31,304 nt of DNA, taken from a virus. Positions within the stretch are counted from its first letter, which is position 1. Every line of letters starts with the position of its first letter. A program made the position numbers and the translations under genes. This document shows, one piece after another, positions 10,966 through 22,253 of this stretch. Below the pieces are notes generated by a model that saw only the letters and a list, made by a program, of their open reading frames with translations, was not told the DNA's origin and did not search any database. The stretch covers positions 1 to 31,304 of IMG/VR virus record IMGVR_UViG_3300037520_000961; one strand, given 5' to 3'.

Positions 10966-13202
10966 TGGTCTATTATGGACGCACCGCCAACGAACACGTC
11001 GACGTCACGATGGCCCTCGTCATCGAGGGCATACCTACTGTCTTCACCGAGCGCGCCATCGCCGGCACACCGGCTAGCTGGAATGGTGCGACGCAGGCCG
11101 TGTGTGTGACGCGCGTCGAAGAGGGCGAGTCAACGCTTGACTTCAACGAGCGCCGCGAGACGGCGGCGACGCTCGACGTCGACGTGCTCGACGACGGGAG
11201 CCTCACGCTTCTCTTCGCGTCGGCATCGCGGTCGGTGAGCTACGTTTCTGCGAACGCATCGGCATCGGCGACGACGATCAACCTCGGATCGACGGCCAAT
11301 CTCGTCGCTGGGCAGGCAATCTACATCGGCAGCGAAACGATCATCGTCGGCACCGTCGCAAGCGCAACGCAGCTCACCGGGTGCACGCGGGGCGCCTACG
11401 GCAGCAAAGCGGCGGCGCTCTTCGGCACCGCCAGCGACGGAGACTCGGTCTACGTGCGCCCGCCATCGTGGCGAGGGCGACGAGCCAAGCTCTACGGCTG
11501 GGGTGCGTCTGAGACGCTCCTCGGCACCTATATCGTCGACGACGCACCGATCCAGCAAGGCGACTCAACGTGGGCGCTGCGGATGGCGAGCATCGCTCAA
11601 GAGTACTTCGAGCGCGTCGTCGGGCTCGGGCTGCGCAAGCCGTTTGCCGGGGGCATTCCCGTCATCCCAGGCATAACCGACACAGATATCGCTATCGTGC
11701 TGGAACCAGACGGGAACTCAGCATTTCGCACCGGCGTCAACTTTCCGACGTATGTGCTCTTCGAGTATGGGGAAAACCCAAGCGGAACGCGTGGCCCAGG
11801 CGCATCGATCTACAAGCTCAACAGTGTTGACACAGCCACCGATTACACAATTTTTCTCGACGTGCTCCCACTGTACGGGACGCGTCAAATGTTCTCTCGT
11901 CCTGGCCCGTTTACCAGGAAACCGTGCTTTGCGTCGCCGATGGCCATCGTCGGCGGAAAAAACGCCATGCTCCACGTCATGCTGTCCAAGGAGGGCCAAG
12001 CGGCGGGCGGTGTGACTTACGACTGTCTGCCAGGTCGCGCGCCGACGAAGTCAGAAGACCTCGGTTGGCGTCTTGGTGCGAACTTCGATCCGTCCGAGGT
12101 CGACATCGACGCATTCGACGAATTCCCCGAGACAGAGTCGACGTGGGTGATCAACAAAGAGCGCAAGCTCACCGAGCTGCTACGCGAGTGGACGTTGATC
12201 AACGGCGCGATCATCGTCACGACGGCCGACGGCAAGATCAAACCCATCTCGATTGCTCCACCGCGCATCACGAACTCGACGACGATCGGCGCGTCAAGCA
12301 TCATCCCCGACGGCGCTGTCAGTGTGCAAGCCGACGAGGGAAGCATCTACCCGCGTATCGAAATCAAAGCGGGATATGACCCGGTAAACGACGATTACGT
12401 CGACACATTCAACCTCATCGACGCCGACATGGCCAAGCGCTACCCGCGCGCCACCGACGTGATCGGCGTCGAGATAGGTAGCATCGGAATAGCTGGCGAG
12501 TACCCGCGCAACGTCTCACGGCCGCCGTGGCAAAATCCCGTGTCGATGACACCTGGCGAGATGATTCCATTTGTGCAGTCGCTTATCCGACCCGCACAAT
12601 CAGGGCGCCGCATCGTTTCGCTGTCCCTCTCGCACGAGCACCTCGGCTTGCGCGTCGGCGACTTCGTTACGTTCGGCAACGACCTGCCGAACGGGTTCGC
12701 CGTGCCAGACCTTCGCGGAGGAACCATCACCGGTCTCTCAGGACGCATCATCTCACGACGCCCCAGATACGACCAGGCACGCGTTGATGTGCAGATCGAA
12801 CTCCTCGAGCGGCGGCTTCACATCTGCCCGTCTGCGACGCTCTCAGGCGCTCCTGTGGGGAATACGATCGTGCTCAACGCAAGCACGGTCGAAAACCCGC
12901 TCTCCTCGCCGTCTGACCATTTCTGGGTCGGAGCCAATGTCCAGATCGTCGACGCATCACAGGGCGGCGGTGCAGGCACACCGTGGAGTGCAGACGTGAC
13001 TGCGATCCCAAGCGGGACGCAGCTCACCCTCAGCTCGGTGCCGACGGTCATCGCCGACGGGTGGACCCTCGCGTCAGGTGACCGGGTGACGCTGCTTCCC
13101 AGCAATAGCGGACTCGGCACGTCAGCGAGCGGATACCAGGCAGTCGAGGGCGCCGAGATTCAAGATAGCGATGTGTTTTATCCAAGCAACAGGTGGGTCT
13201 AA
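10965..13202 (+). CDS. Tail hub / tail-associated structural protein
   Basis: 745 residues, ATG overlapping the previous stop (TAATG). Residues about 90-140 include the beta-rich motif GQAIYIGSETIIVGTV...TQLTGCTRGAYGSKAAAL, which recurs in phage tail proteins next to the hub. Downstream parts include ARRAKLYGW-type and LYG-like segments and a repeat of ordered beta strands. A large protein in this position after the distal tail gene fits the baseplate hub or tail-associated protein that forms the tail tip. No lytic-enzyme motif was seen in it. The C-terminal section (after residue 620) contains a second GNTIVLNAST/LSSVPT block like that near residue 90, hinting at domain duplication. Confidence 0.65.
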   Translation: MVYYGRTANEHVDVTMALVIEGIPTVFTERAIAGTPASWNGATQAVCVTRVEEGESTLDFNERRETAATLDVDVLDDGSLTLLFASASRSVSYVSANASASATTINLGSTANLVAGQAIYIGSETIIVGTVASATQLTGCTRGAYGSKAAALFGTASDGDSVYVRPPSWRGRRAKLYGWGASETLLGTYIVDDAPIQQGDSTWALRMASIAQEYFERVVGLGLRKPFAGGIPVIPGITDTDIAIVLEPDGNSAFRTGVNFPTYVLFEYGENPSGTRGPGASIYKLNSVDTATDYTIFLDVLPLYGTRQMFSRPGPFTRKPCFASPMAIVGGKNAMLHVMLSKEGQAAGGVTYDCLPGRAPTKSEDLGWRLGANFDPSEVDIDAFDEFPETESTWVINKERKLTELLREWTLINGAIIVTTADGKIKPISIAPPRITNSTTIGASSIIPDGAVSVQADEGSIYPRIEIKAGYDPVNDDYVDTFNLIDADMAKRYPRATDVIGVEIGSIGIAGEYPRNVSRPPWQNPVSMTPGEMIPFVQSLIRPAQSGRRIVSLSLSHEHLGLRVGDFVTFGNDLPNGFAVPDLRGGTITGLSGRIISRRPRYDQARVDVQIELLERRLHICPSATLSGAPVGNTIVLNASTVENPLSSPSDHFWVGANVQIVDASQGGGAGTPWSADVTAIPSGTQLTLSSVPTVIADGWTLASGDRVTLLPSNSGLGTSASGYQAVEGAEIQDSDVFYPSNRWV

Positions 13203-14503
13203 TGGCTCGCGTTCGATCGACCAATCCCGTCGGTGTCACGCCTCGCGAAGTCGCTCCAGACTCGCCGATCTATGCGCGCTGGTTGCGTGCTGCTGTCGGT
13301 GATACCGCGCTCGCGCATGACCTGATCACCGGAGCCAATTCGACGACGGCGATCGACCACAGTGGTGCTCCGCTTGGATGTCCGCTGCGAATGCCGCTCG
13401 CGGCACAGGCGATAAATAGAGATATATCAGCAACGTCGGATGGTGATTATTACATTCTAGCCGTTCCGGTGTTCATCCGAGGTGGAGAAACTGACACCTA
13501 TTCGCTTCGCATGTCAGTGACGCCGGGCGGGTCCGATGACATGACGCTAGAGGTCAGAGACTCAACTTTTGCAATTCTTAGCGTTCCGCTCCGCGGTGAA
13601 GTAGAGGAACCGCCAGTGCGCGGCGACGGGACGCTAATTCCTATCAATCGAGTATTCGTCGTAAAATGGAATTTCACGATCTACACAGCAGGACTTTACT
13701 ACATATTCGTAAGACGCAGATGCACAGACGCAAACGACCGTTTATTTTCTTGGTCTCTCGACAACGCAAGGCCAAGCGCAGGCTCGACGAACGGCCTTTT
13801 CGTCGACGGCTCAACGCTTGTCGGCAGTCCATACGATGCGCCTGCATCATACAGCGTCGCAAACAACGTCGAATTTTACGACGAGGAGGTCACAGCATAC
13901 ACCACAGGGCTGTCTGCCTATGTGACGTCGCGACTCAACCGCAAGCTGAACGCGCTTTGGGAATATGTCACAGGGTCGAGGATACCAGGGAACAACGCAT
14001 ACAAGGGCACGTCGACCGTCAACAATGACCGGGATATATGGACAAACGAGGCGTTGCTTGAGTTTCCGATGACGATCGCCGCGCTCGGTGCGAGCGCCTC
14101 ACTTAGTGCCGCGAAACCCCCAGCCACATCTGACATGCAGGGATGGATTCGCTATCCGGTCGCTAACTCGACGACGTCAAGATCGTTTTGCGGTCTTGTG
14201 ATGTTCATGCCGAATTTTCGGACGTCGACGTCAGATCTCAAATGCACAGTTTTGTTTCAAGCTTCAATAACCGGCGACAGCATGGCGGATTGGCGGTTTG
14301 ACGTCAACGTCAGCGGATCAACGACTGGCCAATTTTCACCAACACAATTGGGATCGTCTAAATATTGGACCGCCACCGTCACAGGAATCCCGTTCACCGC
14401 AGGAACATCCAATCTTGTCGACGTAAGAATAGCGAACACAGTCAACGGCGGCGCGGTCAAGCACGCTCAGATGCTCGGTGTGTGCCTCTACTTCGACCCC
14501 TGA
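13202..14503 (+). CDS. Putative tail fibre / receptor-binding protein
   Basis: 433 residues from ATG 13202 (TAATG overlap with previous stop; AGGTGG just before). An upstream in-frame GTG at 13193 is less likely. The N-terminus MARVRSTNPVGVTPREVAPDSPIYARWL resembles tail-tip adaptors. Residues about 60-180 form a compact beta-rich domain with YSLRMSVTPGGSDD and ITRNDR-like turns, followed by Ser/Thr/Asn-rich sheets. Codon use is visibly more AT-rich here than in flanking genes (13400-13760 and 14200-14440), which is common for host-recognition proteins exchanged between phages. The receptor and exact attachment are unknown. Confidence 0.5.
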   Translation: MARVRSTNPVGVTPREVAPDSPIYARWLRAAVGDTALAHDLITGANSTTAIDHSGAPLGCPLRMPLAAQAINRDISATSDGDYYILAVPVFIRGGETDTYSLRMSVTPGGSDDMTLEVRDSTFAILSVPLRGEVEEPPVRGDGTLIPINRVFVVKWNFTIYTAGLYYIFVRRRCTDANDRLFSWSLDNARPSAGSTNGLFVDGSTLVGSPYDAPASYSVANNVEFYDEEVTAYTTGLSAYVTSRLNRKLNALWEYVTGSRIPGNNAYKGTSTVNNDRDIWTNEALLEFPMTIAALGASASLSAAKPPATSDMQGWIRYPVANSTTSRSFCGLVMFMPNFRTSTSDLKCTVLFQASITGDSMADWRFDVNVSGSTTGQFSPTQLGSSKYWTATVTGIPFTAGTSNLVDVRIANTVNGGAVKHAQMLGVCLYFDP

Positions 14504-14510
14504 GGATTCC

Positions 14511-15155
14511 ATGGCCATCACTCGAATCGTTTCATCTGAGCCGCTCACAAACGCCGAGGCGACGTCGTGGGCGCCTGCTGTCTCTCGACGTCTGGCGACG
14601 TCGCTCGCTGGCCGTCCGCGCTACCTCCTCGAGCTTCTACGCGGCGACGGTGCAGGCTTTGAAGGTGACGTCGGCACGCCGCTCAACCCACAGGGTCAGC
14701 TCGGCGTCGACCGCAGTGGTCCACCGTGGGGCGATGCACACCTGCATCCGATGTGGATTTACGAGCACGCCGTCGACACGAACATAGCCGGGCAGGTCGC
14801 CATCGCATCGCTCACCGCCGTCGGGCAGGTGGCGACGGTGTTCGCTGAATTCCCGAATCGCCCGCACTATGTCGCGCCGAAAGTGCCCTACTCGCGGGCC
14901 TACTTTCGCGGCCGTGTGACGTGCGTCGGCGGTGGTAGCTGCACGGTGCAGGTGCGTGTGTACTCGGGCGAGGTCTCTCGTTTTGCGTCGGTGACGACGA
15001 CGGGCACCGGCACCATCGGCGACAGCGTGACTTTCGCCGACGTCGTTCCAGGCCTGAACTCTGTCCGCATCGAGTTCGAGTGCACCGCCCTCACGGGCAG
15101 CTCAGCGCGCATCGATCGGGCAAGCCTCAACCAGATCGCCCGGCGCTCGCACTAG
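14511..15155 (+). CDS. Beta-rich tail-tip/accessory structural protein
   Basis: 214 residues from ATG 14511, with GAGGA 5 bases before it; the frame is open 33 bases further left but without a good start. The sequence has MAITRIVSSEPLTNAEATSWAPAVSRRL at the N-terminus and a beta-rich second half with CVGGGSCTVQVRVYSGE and GSSARIDRASL. No enzyme motif is visible. It is the last gene before the capsid unit and lies directly after the fibre candidate, so it may be a fibre partner or tail-tip component. I do not recognise the family. Confidence 0.45.
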   Translation: MAITRIVSSEPLTNAEATSWAPAVSRRLATSLAGRPRYLLELLRGDGAGFEGDVGTPLNPQGQLGVDRSGPPWGDAHLHPMWIYEHAVDTNIAGQVAIASLTAVGQVATVFAEFPNRPHYVAPKVPYSRAYFRGRVTCVGGGSCTVQVRVYSGEVSRFASVTTTGTGTIGDSVTFADVVPGLNSVRIEFECTALTGSSARIDRASLNQIARRSH

Positions 15156-15162
15156 GCTGTCA

Positions 15163-15180
15163 AGCGCAAAAGAGTGCAGT
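15163..15180. promoter_or_regulatory. 18-base palindromic motif, copy 2 (imperfect)
   Basis: AGCGCA-AAAGAG-TGCAGT: the right half and the NNAGAG spacer match copy 1, while the left half differs from ACTGCA at two bases. It lies 31 bases before copy 3, almost exactly three helical turns, so two bound proteins would face the same side of the DNA. It is in the gap before the scaffold gene. Confidence 0.55.
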
Positions 15181-15186
15181 CGGATC

Positions 15187-15216
15187 TTGCGGGTCTGCAA
15201 CAGAGTGCAGTAGGCT
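15187..15216 (+). promoter_or_regulatory. Candidate promoter for the scaffold-capsid unit
   Basis: TTGCGG (15187-15192) and TAGGCT (15211-15216) are separated by 18 bases and could act as -35 and -10 elements. Copy 3 of the palindrome fills the spacer. This would let a palindrome-binding protein turn the promoter on or off. The match to consensus is weak, so this is only a candidate. Confidence 0.35.
15194..15211. promoter_or_regulatory. 18-base palindromic motif, copy 3 (TCTGCA-N6-TGCAGT)
   Basis: CTGCA and TGCAG form a 5-base inverted repeat around the spacer ACAGAG. The right half AGAGTGCAGT (15202-15211) is identical to the other two copies. It ends 11 bases before the scaffold ATG, close to the ribosome site AGGGG, so binding there could also affect transcription start or translation. 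Confidence 0.55.
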
Positions 15217-15222
15217 AGGGGC

Positions 15223-15882
15223 ATGACAACCTCCGCCGATGGCGCGCCGACCCCTTCCCAAGAGCCTGTGGCGGGCTCTGCTGCCCCTTCACCTGACGTC
15301 GTGGATATCGACGCGCTCAAGGCCGCTGCGGCCGAGCTGGCGGCCCTCAAGGCCGAGGCGGCGGAGGCGAAAAAACTTGACAGGGAGGCGCGGAAGCGGG
15401 CGCAAGAGGATGCCGAGAAGGCGGGCGAAATCGCCAAGGCCCTCGAAGCGGCCAAGTCGCGCCTGGCCGAGCTCGAGGCCAACGAGCCGCTGGCGCAGCG
15501 CTGGCGCGCCTACGAGGCCGAGGAGGCCAAGCGTCTCGACGGCGAGGCATCGACGCTGCCTGAGGCCGTGCGCGACCTCTACCAGGGCGCTGGCGACATC
15601 GAGGCCAAGCGCAAGGTGCTTGCCGCGTTTCGCGCCACGTCGTCGACGACGGCACCCGTCAAGGGCCAGCCACCGGCGATGGGTGCGCCCGCTCCGGTGT
15701 CTGCCGTCGACATCGAGGCCGCGCTCGCCGACAAAAGCGGTCAAAAGCTGGCCGAAATCAAGAAGCGCGACCCCGGCGCAGTGAGCGCATTTTTCAACCG
15801 AGTCCTCGCGAATCGCGGTGGCTCTCAATCCCTCGGCGTCGGGCGATTCGCATCGTCGACGACCAAGGCGCCCAACGCTTGA
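15223..15882 (+). CDS. Capsid scaffold protein
   Basis: 219 residues, ATG 15223 with AGGGG before it. Residues about 25-100 are a long Ala/Glu/Lys/Arg-rich coiled coil, with residues DALKAAAAELAALKAEAAEAKK visible at its start. The ends are Ala/Pro/Ser-rich and flexible, and the C-terminus is basic with a FFNRVLANRGG helix. This is the typical build of a phage scaffolding protein, which forms the core around which coat protein assembles and is then removed. It directly precedes the major capsid gene, 26 bases away. No protease-like segment is present, so the scaffold may leave intact or be cut by another enzyme. Confidence 0.85.
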   Translation: MTTSADGAPTPSQEPVAGSAAPSPDVVDIDALKAAAAELAALKAEAAEAKKLDREARKRAQEDAEKAGEIAKALEAAKSRLAELEANEPLAQRWRAYEAEEAKRLDGEASTLPEAVRDLYQGAGDIEAKRKVLAAFRATSSTTAPVKGQPPAMGAPAPVSAVDIEAALADKSGQKLAEIKKRDPGAVSAFFNRVLANRGGSQSLGVGRFASSTTKAPNA

Positions 15883-15908
15883 GCGGCGCGTGCCGCAATA
15901 GGTGACCC

Positions 15909-16901
15909 ATGCCCGTCTCTTCGTCCACCACCGTCTCAAATTGGTTGCTCACCGAGGTCATGAGCCAGATGGCTCTTGACCCGCTCCGCGGCAAGTATGT
16001 TCTGTTGCCATTCCTCAATATGGCCGACATCTCGGGCCGCGCGACCAAGGTTCGCAAGATCCGCAAGAAGTCCGCGATTGCCGCCGCTGTCGACGACAGC
16101 GAGGGAGTTGCGTTCAGCAATCCCGCGGCAATTGGCGTGCAGGCCAATATCAGCATCACCCCGACGACCAAGGTGCAAGGCATCCAGCTCACCTCTGACG
16201 CCGTCGAGCTCGCGCTCCCCGGTGTGCCGCGCTCGCAAGTGATCGCCGCCATCGAGGGCAGCAACCCTGTCACGCTCCCGCTCGTGCGTGACGCGATCAC
16301 CGAGATCCTCGAGGCTCACTACCTCCGCGCCGAGACCGACGCGCTCGCGCTCTTCTCCGGCCTGTCGGAGTCGGCGGGTACGACCAACCAGCCGCTGTCG
16401 TTTGCCACGCTTCTCGACGCGCTCCTCAAGGTGATGGACAACAACCCGTCGTCAGAAGACCTCGTCTTCGTGCTCGAAGAGCAAGGCATGGCCGACCTCC
16501 GCACGCTTGCGGCGTCGGGCGGCGGCGCGTCGCTGTCGGCCATCTTCGGCGGCGGTGGTTCGGGTGATGTCTCGTTCTTCAACCACAGGCCCGATGCCTC
16601 GCGCAACGGGCTGCGCGGTTCGTTCGCTGGTATCCCGATCTACAGCGCGAACAAGAACGTGATGGCGACGGCAAACGCCGGCGTCGACCGTGTCGCCGCG
16701 CTTATCGTCGCTGGTCGTGGCGAGACTGGCGCGCCCGGCAGCGTGCGTGGATTCGCTGAGATGGTCGAGCGCTACGAGCCCTCGCTGGGCTTTCAGTACG
16801 ACCTCAGCGACGACACCCTGCTTGCCGTGGGTCGCTGGTGCTGGGCTGTCGGCGAGCACACCGACGAGCACGGATGCAAGATCATCTACGACCTCGACTG
16901 A
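15909..16901 (+). CDS. Major capsid protein
   Basis: 330 residues, ATG 15909 with AGGTGA at 15900-15905. It begins MPVSSSTTVSNWLLTEVMSQMAL, then ISGRATKVRKIRKKSAI, followed by the ITPTTKVQGIQLTSDAVELAL strand pattern and an Ala/Gly/Ser-rich middle, and ends with QYDLSDDTLLAVGRWCW. This general order fits HK97-fold coat proteins of the roughly 300-330-residue class that use a separate scaffold. The preceding scaffold gene and the strong terminator after it point to a highly expressed product. Its position downstream of the tail genes is unusual. Confidence 0.82.
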   Translation: MPVSSSTTVSNWLLTEVMSQMALDPLRGKYVLLPFLNMADISGRATKVRKIRKKSAIAAAVDDSEGVAFSNPAAIGVQANISITPTTKVQGIQLTSDAVELALPGVPRSQVIAAIEGSNPVTLPLVRDAITEILEAHYLRAETDALALFSGLSESAGTTNQPLSFATLLDALLKVMDNNPSSEDLVFVLEEQGMADLRTLAASGGGASLSAIFGGGGSGDVSFFNHRPDASRNGLRGSFAGIPIYSANKNVMATANAGVDRVAALIVAGRGETGAPGSVRGFAEMVERYEPSLGFQYDLSDDTLLAVGRWCWAVGEHTDEHGCKIIYDLD

Positions 16902-16909
16902 GTCGTCTG

Positions 16910-16946
16910 GCCGGGGGCTCACGACGAGCCCCCGGCTTTTCTTTCT
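16910..16946 (+). terminator. Rho-independent terminator after the capsid gene
   Basis: GCCGGGGGCTC (16910-16920) pairs perfectly with GAGCCCCCGGC (16926-16936) around a 5-base loop, then TTTTCTTTCT follows. It starts 8 bases after the major capsid stop. It should end most rightward transcripts, so genes beyond depend on read-through, antitermination or a promoter not visible here. Confidence 0.92.
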
Positions 16947-16974
16947 ATCCATCCCTCACAAGAGGCGCGTCGAC

Positions 16975-17433
16975 GTGAAACGAACCATCAAGCTCCGCTG
17001 CATCAAAGACCCTCACATCGTCGAATTCGTCGACGGTGGCATCACCAAAGAGGGCGAGCCAACCTCGCAGCGGCAGGCGCTTGCGCGCGTGTTGTCGAAG
17101 CGCATCCCCGTCGTCGTCGACGGCAAAGAATCGCAGCTCCCCGTGTTTCTCATCGAGCACGTCGGTGACTGGCGTTTTGCGCCGAATGAGTCTGCGCCGT
17201 CGTCTGACGATGCCCTCGCCTTCGAGTCCGACGTCATCCAACGCGAGCACCCAGAGCACATGCTCGCGAAGTGGGCCAGGGCTCGCGATGGCTTCATTGC
17301 AAAGAGCATCGAGGCACGTCGTCAAGCCGAGGTGCAGCTCGAGCAACAGATGGGCGGCGAAGTCGCGAAGTCGATCCAGGCAATGGTGAAGTCCGTTGCA
17401 TCGTCGTCGACGAAGGCGGTGGCTCGTGTCTGA
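16975..17433 (+). CDS. Head-module protein of unknown function
   Basis: 152 residues from GTG 16975, with AAGAGG about 10 bases before. The frame is open further left but that part overlaps the capsid gene. The N-terminal 60 residues look like a small alpha/beta domain (KRTIKLRCIKDPHIVEFVDGG). The rest is helical and charged, ending in RRQAEVQLEQQMGGEVAKSI. No known motif was recognised. It lies between the capsid terminator and a beta-rich decoration-like gene, so a head-completion role is plausible. It is followed by a gene whose start overlaps its stop region. Confidence 0.55.
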   Translation: MKRTIKLRCIKDPHIVEFVDGGITKEGEPTSQRQALARVLSKRIPVVVDGKESQLPVFLIEHVGDWRFAPNESAPSSDDALAFESDVIQREHPEHMLAKWARARDGFIAKSIEARRQAEVQLEQQMGGEVAKSIQAMVKSVASSSTKAVARV

Positions 17434-17572
17434 TATCAAGAATAGCACCGTCGACAAAGTCGCCGAGAAAATCAAGCAATCAAACCCTTCTCTCTCCTCG
17501 GAGAAAGCGCGTCAAATGGCGCGTGAATCAGCCGAGCGCATCAACCGCAACAGCCGCGAACGCGGCAAGTAG
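17426..17572 (+). CDS. Small basic phage protein (48 aa)
   Basis: 48 residues from GTG 17426, overlapping the previous gene by 8 bases, ending TAG 17570-17572. The sequence MSDIKNSTVDKVAEKIKQSN, then PSLSSEKARQMARESAERI, then NRNSRERGK is highly charged and helical. Its length and composition resemble small phage head-associated proteins, but I recognise no family. The stop is part of the AGGAG site of the next gene. The reading frame is supported by codon use like its neighbours. Confidence 0.5.
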   Translation: MSDIKNSTVDKVAEKIKQSNPSLSSEKARQMARESAERINRNSRERGK

Positions 17573-17580
17573 GAGCTCCA

Positions 17581-18084
17581 ATGTCTCTCGCCGCACTGAA
17601 TACCGGTGGTACGCCTCTCGCCCTCGTGGCCCAGATCAACGACGCCACCGGTGAAACAATCACCGTCGCCGCCGCTGCTACGCCACAAGCGATCCTCTCG
17701 TCGACGCTCTACACCGCCGCCAAGAACAACGCGGGCGGCACCCTCACCTTCACCGGCTCAACCGGCGTCGTCGCTGTCGCGGCTCCCGCCGCTCTCGGCG
17801 ACTACGAGGTGCTCGCGATCGTCGGCGACGGAATCGGGACCAACTCAGCCGTCGTGGACATCGAGATTTGGGCCAGCATCGGCGGCGCGGCCAAGGCGCA
17901 GATCGGCGCGGGCTCGCGCAAGACCGAGCTGGCAACGGCGTCTCGTATGGCTATCCCCGCTGCGTATGCGGTATGGGTGCCGACCGCCGTCGGCGACACC
18001 GTCGAAGCCCGCGTTCGCGTCGGGACCAACGGTCACGCTCTGACGATTCGCGATTTCTCGCTCATCGTCCGAAAGATTGGCTGA
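17581..18084 (+). CDS. Putative capsid decoration protein
   Basis: 167 residues, ATG 17581 with AGGAG 5 bases before. Almost all residues are small or beta-forming: Ala, Thr, Gly, Val and Ile, with ETITVAAAATPQAILSSTL and ALGDYEVLAIVGDGIGT. There are no cysteines and no hydrophobic helices. It looks like a single beta-sandwich domain of the type used as capsid decoration. Position after capsid genes supports this. Another structural role is possible; sequence alone does not decide it. Confidence 0.55.
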   Translation: MSLAALNTGGTPLALVAQINDATGETITVAAAATPQAILSSTLYTAAKNNAGGTLTFTGSTGVVAVAAPAALGDYEVLAIVGDGIGTNSAVVDIEIWASIGGAAKAQIGAGSRKTELATASRMAIPAAYAVWVPTAVGDTVEARVRVGTNGHALTIRDFSLIVRKIG

Positions 18085-18110
18085 GCGTCGACGTCAACCG
18101 AGGGTCACAC

Positions 18111-18512
18111 ATGAAAAAAGCAATCATCATCGTCGTGGCCCTCGGGCTGACAGTCGCGACCGGGCTCGCCGCGTTTGGCGGCGGGCCTGTCATCGTCGGG
18201 CAAGCGGCACACGCTGGCCTCACAGATGTCGGACCAGCATTCCCCCGCCACGAGCGCATCACATGCGACACGACGGCGGGCGGCATCGAGATCAAGCCGA
18301 GCGGCAGCTACCAGCTCGTATCCTATGAATGCGAGGCCAAGGGTGCGGTCTTCATCGGCTCCACCACTGGCGCTAATGCGGCGCTGACGACGGCAAACGG
18401 CGTCGAGATGGCCGACGGCGACCGCTTCGGGTCGAATGTGCAGCGGCCTGAGCGCTGCATCTCGGCAGGGTCTGTGGTGCTTCAGTGCCGATTCCTGGTG
18501 ACCTCTCCGTGA
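18111..18512 (+). CDS. Exported protein with two likely disulphides
   Basis: 133 residues from ATG 18111 (GAGGG a few bases before). The first 35 residues are a signal peptide: two lysines, a hydrophobic core (AIIIVVALGLTVATGLAAF), then a small-residue region. There is no lipobox cysteine. The mature part has four cysteines (52, 74, 116, 126), probably two disulphide bonds, consistent with a periplasmic or secreted location. The frame is open further left but only this start gives a signal peptide. The function is unknown. It overlaps the following exported protein by GTGA. Confidence 0.65.
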   Translation: MKKAIIIVVALGLTVATGLAAFGGGPVIVGQAAHAGLTDVGPAFPRHERITCDTTAGGIEIKPSGSYQLVSYECEAKGAVFIGSTTGANAALTTANGVEMADGDRFGSNVQRPERCISAGSVVLQCRFLVTSP

Positions 18513-19642
18513 GGCTCATTCTAGCCGCTGTCCTTGTCCTATCCGCCTCTCAGGCGGGGGCCGAGGTCATCGGTCACGAGAGGGGCATCCTAGGCGGCGA
18601 GGAGGGCTTCTTTCGGACGCGCAACGGCGTGGTGGTTGGATCGTCTGTCGTCATCGCCGCGCTGCCCTATGCGCGCACGGTGACGTGTGGGTCGTACACA
18701 CTGACCGGAACCGCCCCCGGCGGTGGTGCAGTGACATGGTCGGCCTCTCCGTCTGGCTCGTCTGGCTCGTGCACGGGAACGACATCGTGGTCATGCGTCG
18801 TCGACGTCGACCCCGACGCAAGCGGTGAAGGAGTCGAGGTGATCACAGTGGCGCAGTCTGGCGCGTCAAGCGCGCAGGCCACGCTCGGATTCTACGTCGA
18901 TGGCGAGCACTCTTGCTTTCTGTCGCAATCCGTCGACGGCAGTTACAACAGTACGCGAGTAAACCTTGACCCCGTGGCGACGTGGGAAAATCTGGGCTCG
19001 TCGGCGCTTGACGTCACGCAAGCGACAGGCTCAGCACAACCGACGTTCAGGACGTCGATCGTCGGCGGGCAACCGATCGTCAGGTGCGACGGTGGCGACA
19101 GTCTGGCCGCGTCGACGGCGAGCGATTGGACCTATCTCCATGACGGCACGGATTGGACCATTGATGCCGCCAATCTGTACACAGGGACGGCTTCGTCTCA
19201 GATTATCGTCGCCACAACCATCGCGCTCGACAGCGCGACGAATCGCGGTCTCAGTGTTTGGCACCCAGTGACTACGGGAGGAGTAAGATTCACAATTTCG
19301 GAAGGCGCAACCCGTCCTGTCCGATCGTCTACTGTATCTTCGTCTCCTAGTGTTTTTAACCTCAGCACTATGATTCTCGACGACGACGGTGGCGCCGGGT
19401 CCGATGGTTTTGTGTATCTGAATGGAGTGCTTGGCAACTCTCCAGTGAGAAGTGGGACATATTCCGCCACGGCCCCTCCAGCGGGCGTCACTGTGTGCGC
19501 TGAGACTGACGGCGGAGCGGCTTTAACCGGCGACCTATTCCGCGTCCTAATCTACCAATCCGCCCTCAGCGCAACACAGCGCGACATCAACAAATCCGTC
19601 GACGAGTGGGCGCTTGGCGGCTCACTTCCGGTGACGCCATGA
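18509..19642 (+). CDS. Exported Ig/LamG-like (concanavalin-like) protein
   Basis: 377 residues from GTG 18509, overlapping the previous stop. That start gives a clear signal peptide, MRLILAAVLVLSASQAGA, cut after AGA; a start at 18485 would place it inside the protein. Residues about 40-140 resemble an Ig-like domain (Cys residues, GTAPGGGAVTWSASPSG). Residues about 145-370 contain ATWENLGSSALDVTQATGSAQP, then IVGGQPIVRCDGGDSL, and a later DDDGGAGSDGFVYLNGV, a LamG/concanavalin-like lectin pattern. Such domains bind sugars or surface proteins. An exported lectin-like protein in a phage lysis region is unusual; superinfection exclusion or a host-surface effect are guesses. Confidence 0.65.
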   Translation: MRLILAAVLVLSASQAGAEVIGHERGILGGEEGFFRTRNGVVVGSSVVIAALPYARTVTCGSYTLTGTAPGGGAVTWSASPSGSSGSCTGTTSWSCVVDVDPDASGEGVEVITVAQSGASSAQATLGFYVDGEHSCFLSQSVDGSYNSTRVNLDPVATWENLGSSALDVTQATGSAQPTFRTSIVGGQPIVRCDGGDSLAASTASDWTYLHDGTDWTIDAANLYTGTASSQIIVATTIALDSATNRGLSVWHPVTTGGVRFTISEGATRPVRSSTVSSSPSVFNLSTMILDDDGGAGSDGFVYLNGVLGNSPVRSGTYSATAPPAGVTVCAETDGGAALTGDLFRVLIYQSALSATQRDINKSVDEWALGGSLPVTP

Positions 19643-20220
19643 GCCGACTCAGGCAAGCGATGATCGCTATCCCCTCGATGGGGCTCGCCGCCGCTCTGGC
19701 GCTCTACGGTCTCACGCCGCGAGAAATGACCGACGCCGTCATTGACGCTGCTGTGGTGCTGCGCTCGATGGCGCGGACCCCCGACGAGATCGTTGATCTC
19801 ATCGTCGCCGAATCCGGCGCAAGCCGTGACGAGGTCGAGCCAGTCGTTCGGCTCGCTGTCGGCAGCGTCGGCCGTGACTCGCGCAGCCTTCGCACCGTCG
19901 ATCTGTCGGTGCTTGTGCCCGCGACCAAGGCGACCGACGCCGTCGAGGCGTACGCACAGGCGTTTTGCGCGCCGCTGTTGGCCTTCGCCGATGCGTCTCA
20001 CCCTGTCGTGGCCGAATGCCTCGCCGCGCAGCGTGCGGCATCTGGCGTGCCGTATTGCGTGGGTGACGCGGTCGCTGGCTATCTTGTCCGCTCGCCGGCC
20101 ACGCCACCTCAGGCCGAGCTTGCGCAGCAATGGCTCGGGTCGATCGCCACCATCGTCGACGGCGACCCAGCGGCGGCGCTCGCCGCGCGCGGGTGGCAGA
20201 GGTGTCCAGATGCATCCTGA
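19639..20220 (+). CDS. Membrane-anchored or exported protein of unknown function
   Basis: 193 residues, ATG overlapping the previous stop (ATGA). Residues about 8-24 (MIAIPSMGLAAALALYG) form a short hydrophobic segment after a few basic residues, a signal anchor or uncleaved signal. The rest is a soluble, helix-rich domain with three or four cysteines near residues 109, 121 and 134. I do not recognise a family. It sits between two exported proteins and a phospholipase, and its gene overlaps the next by 11 bases, so it is probably part of the same system. Confidence 0.5.
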   Translation: MSRLRQAMIAIPSMGLAAALALYGLTPREMTDAVIDAAVVLRSMARTPDEIVDLIVAESGASRDEVEPVVRLAVGSVGRDSRSLRTVDLSVLVPATKATDAVEAYAQAFCAPLLAFADASHPVVAECLAAQRAASGVPYCVGDAVAGYLVRSPATPPQAELAQQWLGSIATIVDGDPAAALAARGWQRCPDAS

Positions 20221-21085
20221 CGTCTACGCCAGCGTGAGCGGCGGTGGTCCCGCTATCACCTATCTCGCTGGCGCAGCGTCGTCTCTGGCCGCTCGATCGC
20301 GTGTGCTCGGGTGGGCCGGTGCATCGGCGGGCGCGCTTGTCGCGGCCTGCAAGGCGTTTGCTGTCGCCGATGAGACGATTGTGCGTATCCTTGTCGAGGT
20401 GCTGTCGACGGGAAAGGTCTTGAATCCAGGTCTTGGGAATATTCCCCGCGGCGGAATCTTCGACCTCGACACCGTGGGCGCGATCGTCGACGCCAACTTG
20501 GGCAAGGGCGCACGCCTCGGGGATGCGAGCGTGCCTCTCGTCGTCTGCGTGACCGACCTTGACAGGGCGCGTCCTGTCTATCTCGCGAAGGCAACTACGC
20601 CGCGCGTGCTCGTGCGTGAGGCGCTCATTGCGTCGTCGTCGTTCATGTGCGGGGTCACGCCAGCGGCGACGATCCCAAGCATCGGCACCGAGCTCTCGCC
20701 GGACATCCGTCTGTGGGGCGACGGCGGCCTCACAGACAACACGGTCGACGGCATCTGGGATGGCCTTCGCGATCCTCGTGTGGCGCTGCGTCTCGCTCGC
20801 CACGACGGCGATACACAGCCGCACGAGCGCATCCGCGACGGTGACGTGCCCAAGATTCTCGCGGCGCTTCCTCGTGCTCTCTTGTGGGGCGCGTCGACGT
20901 GGAAATCACGTCGCATGGATGGCCTCGACATCGAGGTCGACGGCGTCAACGACTGGTCTTTCAAAAAGACCGAGACGCGCATCCTTGGCGAGTGGGCCGA
21001 CGGCTACGACAGCGCCGCCGGGCAAATCGGCGAGTGGTTGCGTCGACGAAAAGACGCTGAGACAATGGCGACCCATGAGCATTGA
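20210..21085 (+). CDS. Patatin-like phospholipase
   Basis: 291 residues from ATG 20210 with AGAGG 8 bases before; upstream open frame overlaps the previous gene. It shows the patatin hallmarks in order: SGGGPAI (residues 10-16, oxyanion loop), the GASAG nucleophile elbow with Ser39, the ALIASSSF block around 138-145, and the DGGLTDN motif with Asp171. Patatins hydrolyse the acyl ester bonds of phospholipids, using a Ser-Asp pair. It lacks a signal peptide, so it acts from the cytoplasm, perhaps after holin pores form. It sits directly ahead of a holin-like and a peptidase gene, implying a lysis role, possibly damaging the inner or outer membrane. The catalytic residues appear intact. Confidence 0.85.
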   Translation: MHPDVYASVSGGGPAITYLAGAASSLAARSRVLGWAGASAGALVAACKAFAVADETIVRILVEVLSTGKVLNPGLGNIPRGGIFDLDTVGAIVDANLGKGARLGDASVPLVVCVTDLDRARPVYLAKATTPRVLVREALIASSSFMCGVTPAATIPSIGTELSPDIRLWGDGGLTDNTVDGIWDGLRDPRVALRLARHDGDTQPHERIRDGDVPKILAALPRALLWGASTWKSRRMDGLDIEVDGVNDWSFKKTETRILGEWADGYDSAAGQIGEWLRRRKDAETMATHEH

Positions 21086-21320
21086 GCAGGCCCTTGTCTC
21101 CGCTGTCTCTGCTGTCGCTGGCGGCGCCGCCGCGTGGGCCTCGCTACAGGCACGCGTGAGACGACTCGAAGAAATCACCGCCGACCTCAAGGCCGAGAAG
21201 GCATCGAAAGAGGCGCTGTCCGTCGTCGCGTCGTCGGTGGATAGACTGACACAGGAGATGGAGCGACGCTTCGATCGATTAGAAGACTTACTCAAAGCCA
21301 TCATCGCGAGGCCACAATGA
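21075..21320 (+). CDS. Small coiled-coil membrane protein (lysis region)
   Basis: 81 residues from ATG 21075, overlapping the patatin gene by 11 bases. An N-terminal hydrophobic segment (residues about 6-24, ALVSAVSAVAGGAAAWASL) is followed by a charged coiled coil (residues 25-75, many Arg, Glu and Leu). The layout resembles XhlA-type or inner-membrane spanin-like proteins, with a helix in the membrane and a coiled coil outside. There is no lipoprotein partner next to it, so a classic two-part spanin is not evident. Its stop overlaps the start of the next gene (ATGA). Confidence 0.6.
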   Translation: MSIEQALVSAVSAVAGGAAAWASLQARVRRLEEITADLKAEKASKEALSVVASSVDRLTQEMERRFDRLEDLLKAIIARPQ

Positions 21321-21556
21321 CCGACGCTCCCGATCCCACCATCGACGACGGCGGCGCCGTCGGCCGCTTTCTCGCTCGCATTTTCGGTCGCAGCTATCGC
21401 ACCACGATCGCCGGCGTGGTGACCGTGCTCGCGCAAGGCGTGGCGCTCGCACCCGGCATGCCTCCTGACGTCGCACACTGGGCGCAGGTGCTCGCCGGCC
21501 TCGCGTCTGGCGCGGGTCTGCTCATCGCCAAAGACGCTCGCGTGTCGGGCAAATGA
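21317..21556 (+). CDS. Putative holin
   Basis: 79 residues, ATG overlapping the previous stop (ATGA), with GAGG 5 bases before. The hydrophobic parts are residues about 29-47 (TTIAGVVTVLAQGVALAPG) and 54-69 (WAQVLAGLASGAGLLIA), joined by a short PPD turn, and the protein ends KDARVSGK. This size and the ending match small phage holin-like proteins with an AKDxxVSG tail. Holins make inner-membrane holes that time lysis. It is followed at once by a tiny gene and the C39-like peptidase. Confidence 0.65.
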   Translation: MTDAPDPTIDDGGAVGRFLARIFGRSYRTTIAGVVTVLAQGVALAPGMPPDVAHWAQVLAGLASGAGLLIAKDARVSGK

Positions 21557-21681
21557 CGCGCTTCCTCGTCGTCTACGATGACGACGTTGAGCGCATCGTC
21601 TATGCGCCGTCGGTCGACGTCGCCGACAAGATCGCGGCCGTGCTGCGCCTCGAGCGCGTGGTGATCATATGGGCAGAATAG
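21553..21681 (+). CDS. Very small protein (42 aa) in the lysis cluster
   Basis: 42 residues, ATG overlapping the holin stop (ATGA), ending TAG 21679-21681. The sequence MTRFLVVYDDDVERIVYAPS, then VDVADKIAAVLRLERVVIIWAE has a beta-alpha-beta look. It ends inside the start of the peptidase gene (13-base overlap), so translation is likely coupled. Nothing is known of it. It may be only a bridge that keeps ribosomes loaded onto the peptidase gene. Confidence 0.45.
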   Translation: MTRFLVVYDDDVERIVYAPSVDVADKIAAVLRLERVVIIWAE

Positions 21682-22253
21682 GATACCAAGACCAACCCGT
21701 GCTGTGGCAGGGCGATCCTCGCTGGGGTCGCCGCACGGTCGGCCTCGGGCAAGGCACGTTTGGCGCCGTCGGTTGTGTCGTCACGTCGCTGGCGATGGCG
21801 CTCCGATTCCTCGGCGTCCGCGCTGGCGCAACACCGCTGCAGGTCCAAGCGGCGGGGCTCCTACACGGCAACGTGTGGGCTCCAGGGCAATCGGGGTGTG
21901 TCGTCCCGGCCCTTGTGTCGGCTCAGGTCTACGTGAGCCCTGGCATCGATTTGGCGGGGCCTGGGAAGGTCGCCGACAAGGGTGCCTTGCGCGAGCTCAT
22001 CACCGAGACACTCGGCAAGCGCGGCGTGCTCTTGCTCGCCGTCGACTATGACCGCTCGTTGCCGAAGGGCGACCCGATCGCGGATCATTGGGTGTGCTGC
22101 TACGCCGTCGACGGTGACGACGTGCTCGTAGCCGACCCTGCTACGGCGCGGACCGAGCGTCTGCTTTCGTCGACGCTCGAAGGCCCCGTGAAATGGGGCA
22201 AGATCACGCGCCGCTACTCGGTGGCGCGTGCTGTGTCGGTGCTGGTGGACTGA
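21669..22253 (+). CDS. C39-like cysteine peptidase, putative endolysin
   Basis: 194 residues from ATG 21669. The N-terminus has DPRWGRRTVGLGQGTFGAVGCVVTSLAMAL, the C39-like catalytic Cys36 with a helix behind it. The His motif ADHWVCCYAVDG (His140) and ADPA (Asp156) follow in the right order for a papain-fold peptidase. Such enzymes in phages cut peptidoglycan cross-links. It has no signal peptide and lies next to the holin, so it is probably the lysis enzyme. The gene end overlaps the convergent operon by 40 bases. A processing peptidase is the alternative. Confidence 0.72.
   Translation: MGRIGYQDQPVLWQGDPRWGRRTVGLGQGTFGAVGCVVTSLAMALRFLGVRAGATPLQVQAAGLLHGNVWAPGQSGCVVPALVSAQVYVSPGIDLAGPGKVADKGALRELITETLGKRGVLLLAVDYDRSLPKGDPIADHWVCCYAVDGDDVLVADPATARTERLLSSTLEGPVKWGKITRRYSVARAVSVLVD

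Follow-up and report, generated by a model that had tools for sequence, protein, structure and literature searches.

We identified a patatin-like phospholipase gene within the predicted lysis cassette of a small tailed phage, and we propose, with about an even chance of being right, that the encoded protein is an optional accessory late lipase of the lysis module that would aid lysis. The gene lies on a 31.3-kb IMG/VR fragment, the whole of which was analyzed and is referred to here as the window. A single fixed slot in all carriers found, purifying selection on the gene, and an M15 peptidase next to the patatin of a divergent carrier together support its membership in the lysis module. The preliminary description of this DNA had suggested that the phospholipase might aid or replace outer-membrane rupture. 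Module membership speaks for the first part of this suggestion. The second part, replacement of spanins, was not supported, as patatin-less relatives also lack spanins and patatin has been gained and lost in the group.

The patatin gene and its neighbors

The patatin open reading frame scored above the Pfam gathering threshold for PF01734 (E=5.4e-13; 50 bits against a cut-off of 27.7). Its motifs are intact and located where the preliminary description had placed them (Table 1), and in our alignments Ser39 and Asp171 were unchanged in 12 of 12 patatin homologues, as well as in the 32%-identical patatin of contig G021 (locus L080). The protein thereby shares the GxSxG/DGG catalytic dyad family of the bacterial patatin effectors of the VipD, ExoU, and CapV types. 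Its GGG motif reads GGGPAI, without the basic residue of the GGGx[R/K]G oxyanion block. Many but not all members of the family have this residue, ATGL/PNPLA2 being one exception, so that its absence is not disqualifying. The L080 patatin (11130-11933) likewise has GGGSNC, and the missing residue in both phage proteins hints at an unusual substrate.

Searches beyond the family profile returned little. The best PDB profile hit was VipD, at a non-significant E=0.29, and a structure model had a mean pLDDT of 41, too low for a fold search. Using tblastn against 50,697 phage genomes, neither the window patatin (E up to 10) nor the L080 patatin (E up to 0.01) had a match. No signal peptide or transmembrane (TM) segment was found in the window patatin (hydropathy maximum 1.46), and no activator, sensor, secretion, or targeting domain was seen in it. 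The protein is a predicted lipid acyl hydrolase, whose activity, timing, substrate, and role in lysis are inferred.

The cassette is located between the structural genes and the early genes, which are encoded on the opposite strand. Patatin directly precedes the coiled-coil, holin-like, and peptidase genes, the order given in the preliminary description, with a 42-aa open reading frame as an additional member. From patatin to the peptidase, neighboring genes overlap by 4-13 bp, and g23, the gene before patatin, runs 11 bp into it. A scan for promoter-like sites separating patatin from its neighbors found no more than it did in shuffled sequences, which is weak evidence that no such site exists.

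Table 1 Features of the window discussed in the text
Feature	Coordinates	Strand	Remarks
Probable major capsid protein	15909..16901	+	position after scaffold-like gene; no Pfam or PHROG match
g23, N-terminal hydrophobic segment	19639..20220	+	directly adjoins coiled-coil gene in several patatin-less relatives
Patatin-like phospholipase, 291 aa	20210..21085	+	PF01734; GGG 11-13, GASAG 37-41 (Ser39), DGG 171-173 (Asp171)
Small N-terminal-TM coiled-coil protein, 81 aa	21075..21320	+	hydropathy 1.61 at residues 6-24
Two-hydrophobic-segment protein, holin-like, 79 aa	21317..21556	+	segments 30-48 and 52-70, Kyte-Doolittle 1.59 and 1.45 (weak)
42-aa open reading frame, no known family	21553..21681	+	homologues in L016, L007, and L051; present in most cassettes of the group
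C39-like cysteine peptidase, papain fold (predicted), 194 aa	21669..22253	+	Q14-C36-H140-D156; candidate endolysin

Two of the small cassette proteins are candidates for membrane functions. The coiled-coil protein, which is kept in relatives both with and without patatin, weakly matched an Rz-like (i-spanin) family (PHROG 5151, E=0.007), while its analogue in L003 matched a PHROG holin (E=1.3e-4), and by architecture it may be either i-spanin-like or holin-like. The protein encoded next shows 78-85% identity to its counterparts in four patatin carriers (L003, L014, L015, and L016) and is also kept in the patatin-less L051. It had no holin family match in Pfam or PHROG searches, and we call it holin-like from its hydropathy, size, and position.

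The three consecutive genes before patatin (18111-18512, 18485-19642, and 19639-20220) encode signal-peptide- or anchor-like hydrophobic N-termini (hydropathy 1.8-2.5), which are unusual for late phage genes. In L003 and L015, the product of the second gene ends, judged by eye, in an SGNH-like esterase domain.

The last gene of the cassette had been described as encoding a C39-like peptidase. At the sequence level this is weak, with a match to PF13529 (E=0.017) that fell below the Pfam cut-off. Using tblastn (E up to 1), the peptidase had no match in the 50,697 phage genomes. Predicted structure and catalytic residues support the assignment. An AlphaFold model (pLDDT 82, pTM 0.84) retrieved staphopain, phytochelatin synthase, the PCAT1 C39 domain, and the pseudomurein endoisopeptidase PeiR in Foldseek, together with some viral proteins named lysozyme or endolysin, and the four catalytic residues were unchanged in 10 of 10 homologues, as expected for a papain-type cysteine peptidase. 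C39-like domains are present in mycobacteriophage endolysins (PMC3314691). The protein is a likely endolysin, with a predicted cell-wall role.

Patatin at one slot in related phages

The phage genome could be completed from a second contig (G006), which is 99.7-100% identical to the window, overlaps both of its ends, and adds the 7.2 kb that the window lacks, including terminase and portal. Two relatives of 37.4 kb (G002 and G003) are circular permutations of each other and therefore probably complete. These overlapping and permuted pairs indicate complete genomes of ~37-38.5 kb. As no tyrosine integrase or resolvase was detected in eight records, these small (~38 kb) tailed phages are probably virulent, which argues against lysogenic cargo. 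Scans of GTDB genomes with patatin and capsid alignments revealed no relative, and hence no host was assigned; the terminase matches (best ~31%) do not identify one either. An outer membrane is therefore an assumption.

We collected relatives from IMG/VR in scans that used patatin, the peptidase, the holin-like protein, and the capsid protein as queries; the contigs come from metagenomes, and some relatives nearly duplicate others. Patatin was found directly upstream of a coiled-coil or TM cassette gene in all 16 of the carrier contigs found, so that, within patatin carriers, the refuting case named in the preliminary description, a patatin not conserved next to holin genes, was not encountered. 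Another 20 related contigs keep the cassette and have no patatin, from which it follows that lysis in this group does not need it. A Pfam patatin search was negative in 17 of 18 records, the eighteenth being the divergent carrier L080. On a tree of the capsid protein, which also served to gather relatives, patatin presence requires four changes by parsimony, at least two of which are forced by well-supported branches. This patchy distribution at one fixed slot marks patatin as an accessory gene. Its dN/dS of 0.05-0.27 indicates purifying selection and not decay.

The divergent carrier provides the best evidence that the neighborhood is a lysis module that includes patatin, since its patatin sits beside a recognized endolysin. 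In L080, the patatin (PF01734, 74 bits) fills the same slot: it comes immediately behind the gene that, in patatin-less relatives of this contig, has the coiled-coil gene next to it, and it overlaps a TM/coiled-coil gene by 4 bp. A convergent M15 peptidase gene follows in the peptidase slot, with a match to the PHROG 894 endolysin family (E=4.5e-41). This patatin may have been acquired separately, or a single old gene may have been lost in other lineages.

The slot lies beside a variable zone in which genes for a metallophosphoesterase, an SGNH protein, and an HExxH lipoprotein come and go, a setting that also fits a cargo or host-takeover gene (membrane remodeling, superinfection exclusion, or counter-defense) that merely resides between structural and lysis genes. 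The patchy capsid-tree pattern is in line with such a reading, as is the match of the L080 patatin to PADLOC phospholipase effectors (1.5e-8). Against it, patatin keeps to one side of the lysis genes in every case, with overlapping start and stop codons, no separate promoter was found, no integrase was detected in eight records, and the window patatin itself had no PADLOC match and no adjoining cyclase or sensor gene was seen. The lack of a PADLOC match also led us to reject a defense-effector identity for the window patatin. Of the alternatives to an accessory lysis lipase, cargo is the one we consider least improbable, although still unlikely.

The metallophosphoesterase gene is paired with one for a small TM protein. 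The pair is located before patatin in one clade (L007:4830-5717) and after the peptidase gene in L057, L068, L071, and L075, and has thus moved around the lysis cassette.

Spanins and the outer membrane

The preliminary description had noted that no spanin lipoprotein with a lipobox is visible. A six-frame lipobox scan, which recovered both positive controls (lambda Rz1 and T7 gp18.7), agreed with this: no plausible o-spanin or u-spanin was found in the window and G006, which together cover the whole phage, nor in G002 and G003. The few matches of the scan were antisense, within larger genes, or without the codon-position bias of the phage. Compared with lambda Rz/Rz1, the window coiled-coil protein is i-spanin-like in architecture, whereas the phage genome has no o-spanin lipoprotein.

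Taken at face value, this absence in the complete genome and in two permuted complete relatives would agree with strict replacement, in which the phospholipase is the sole outer-membrane disruptor in the place of a spanin. However, the same scan found no plausible spanin lipoprotein in the near-complete patatin-less relatives G007, G008, G010, G012, G013, G014, and G015, and so the absence of spanins is not tied to the presence of patatin. Moreover, ~13% of surveyed phages have no recognized spanin (PMC6139136), the coiled-coil protein may be half of a spanin pair whose partner went unrecognized, and the argument depends on the Gram type of the host. We regard strict replacement as the least probable of the explanations considered here, and a very unlikely one.

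Some relatives encode other lipoproteins. For a 95-aa Cys/Pro-rich lipoprotein in carrier G001 (L023:6250-6537), encoded between the large terminase and portal genes, the position and the lack of a TM partner speak against a spanin. Short Cys-rich lipoproteins with a lipobox and an HExxH motif (HEAQH, HEGAH) are encoded shortly upstream of the lysis genes in two patatin-less relatives, at L043:4692-5099 (identical to L119:4809-5216) and L110:15829-16185 (the contig of L045/L091). The first had no Pfam or PHROG match, and both could possibly be outer-membrane-anchored metallopeptidases. As a general swap for patatin they were rejected, since most patatin-less genomes have neither.

A proposed role in lysis and its parallels

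Under our preferred reading, an accessory lipase that aids lysis, patatin and the genes for the coiled-coil protein, the holin-like protein, and the C39 peptidase, which together close the late operon, would be translated jointly. Having no export signal, patatin would accumulate in the cytosol late in infection. Since it has no signal peptide or TM segment, its route would resemble that of a classical endolysin: the holin-like proteins would permeabilize the inner membrane, giving patatin access to its substrate. It could then deacylate phospholipids of the inner membrane and, after its release together with the endolysin, those in the inner leaflet of any outer membrane. Such deacylation would weaken the envelope and make the final rupture faster or more complete. 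A stronger version, in which a cytosolic patatin released by the holin along with a C39-type endolysin dissolves the outer membrane independently of spanins, would make this the first phage with a classical endolysin whose lysis depends on patatin; we consider it improbable.

Contrary to the preliminary description, which held a lysis role of phospholipases in phages to be, to its knowledge, not established, a patatin-based lytic cassette had already been proposed for Wolbachia phage WO (PMC9203015; first suggested in PMC3173496). We found no experimental test of it in the literature searched. In both phages, patatin is close to a small N-terminal-TM coiled-coil protein (PMC9203015 for WO) at the end of the tail or late genes, no spanins are present, and a role in cell exit or lysis has been proposed. 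Phage WO differs in that it has an ankyrin protein and genes for a contractile tail (sheath, late control D), and no conserved endolysin. In the window phage such tail genes were not seen, and a candidate peptidase endolysin is present. The window and WO patatins could be aligned only at the Pfam motifs (BLASTP E=0.09; hhalign probability 0.3%), and their small coiled-coil proteins showed no detectable homology (2% probability). Searched against the 50,697 phage genomes, a WO-type patatin matched only WO phages and two unannotated records. The window cassette is a variant of the proposed WO-type kind, with an endolysin candidate and with proteins not detectably homologous to those of WO.

For WO, a role of patatin in entry or in exit was left open (PMC3173496), and a virion-associated phospholipase for entry can be envisaged here too, since the gene comes after structural and secreted-looking genes (window 13193-20220). 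Yet lysis-like neighbors are located downstream in every carrier, and the window patatin is not fused to a structural domain and has neither a signal nor a binding domain. We judge an entry role improbable, slightly more so than spanin-independent dissolution of the outer membrane.

A second parallel is LysB of mycobacteriophages, a mycolyl-arabinogalactan esterase that belongs to the lysis cassette and attacks the last barrier of the envelope (PMC5707550, PMC6116114), and without which phage Ms6 leaves incompletely lysed cells (PMC5707550). The likeness to the window patatin is one of logic, a lipolytic enzyme beside a holin and an endolysin, and is an analogy only. LysB is an alpha/beta hydrolase (PMC7022511) of cutinase-like fold acting on mycolate esters, whereas the window protein is a PF01734 patatin and is dispensable in its phage group.

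The question that these phages address is how the spanin-less fraction of surveyed phages (PMC6139136) breaches the outer membrane. Close relatives that do or do not carry a lipase at a single, constant position of the cassette form a natural set in which an answer based on lipid hydrolysis is testable. If true, the proposed role would provide an independent parallel to the WO patatin hypothesis, in phages with an endolysin candidate, and would extend LysB-like lytic lipases beyond the mycobacteriophages.
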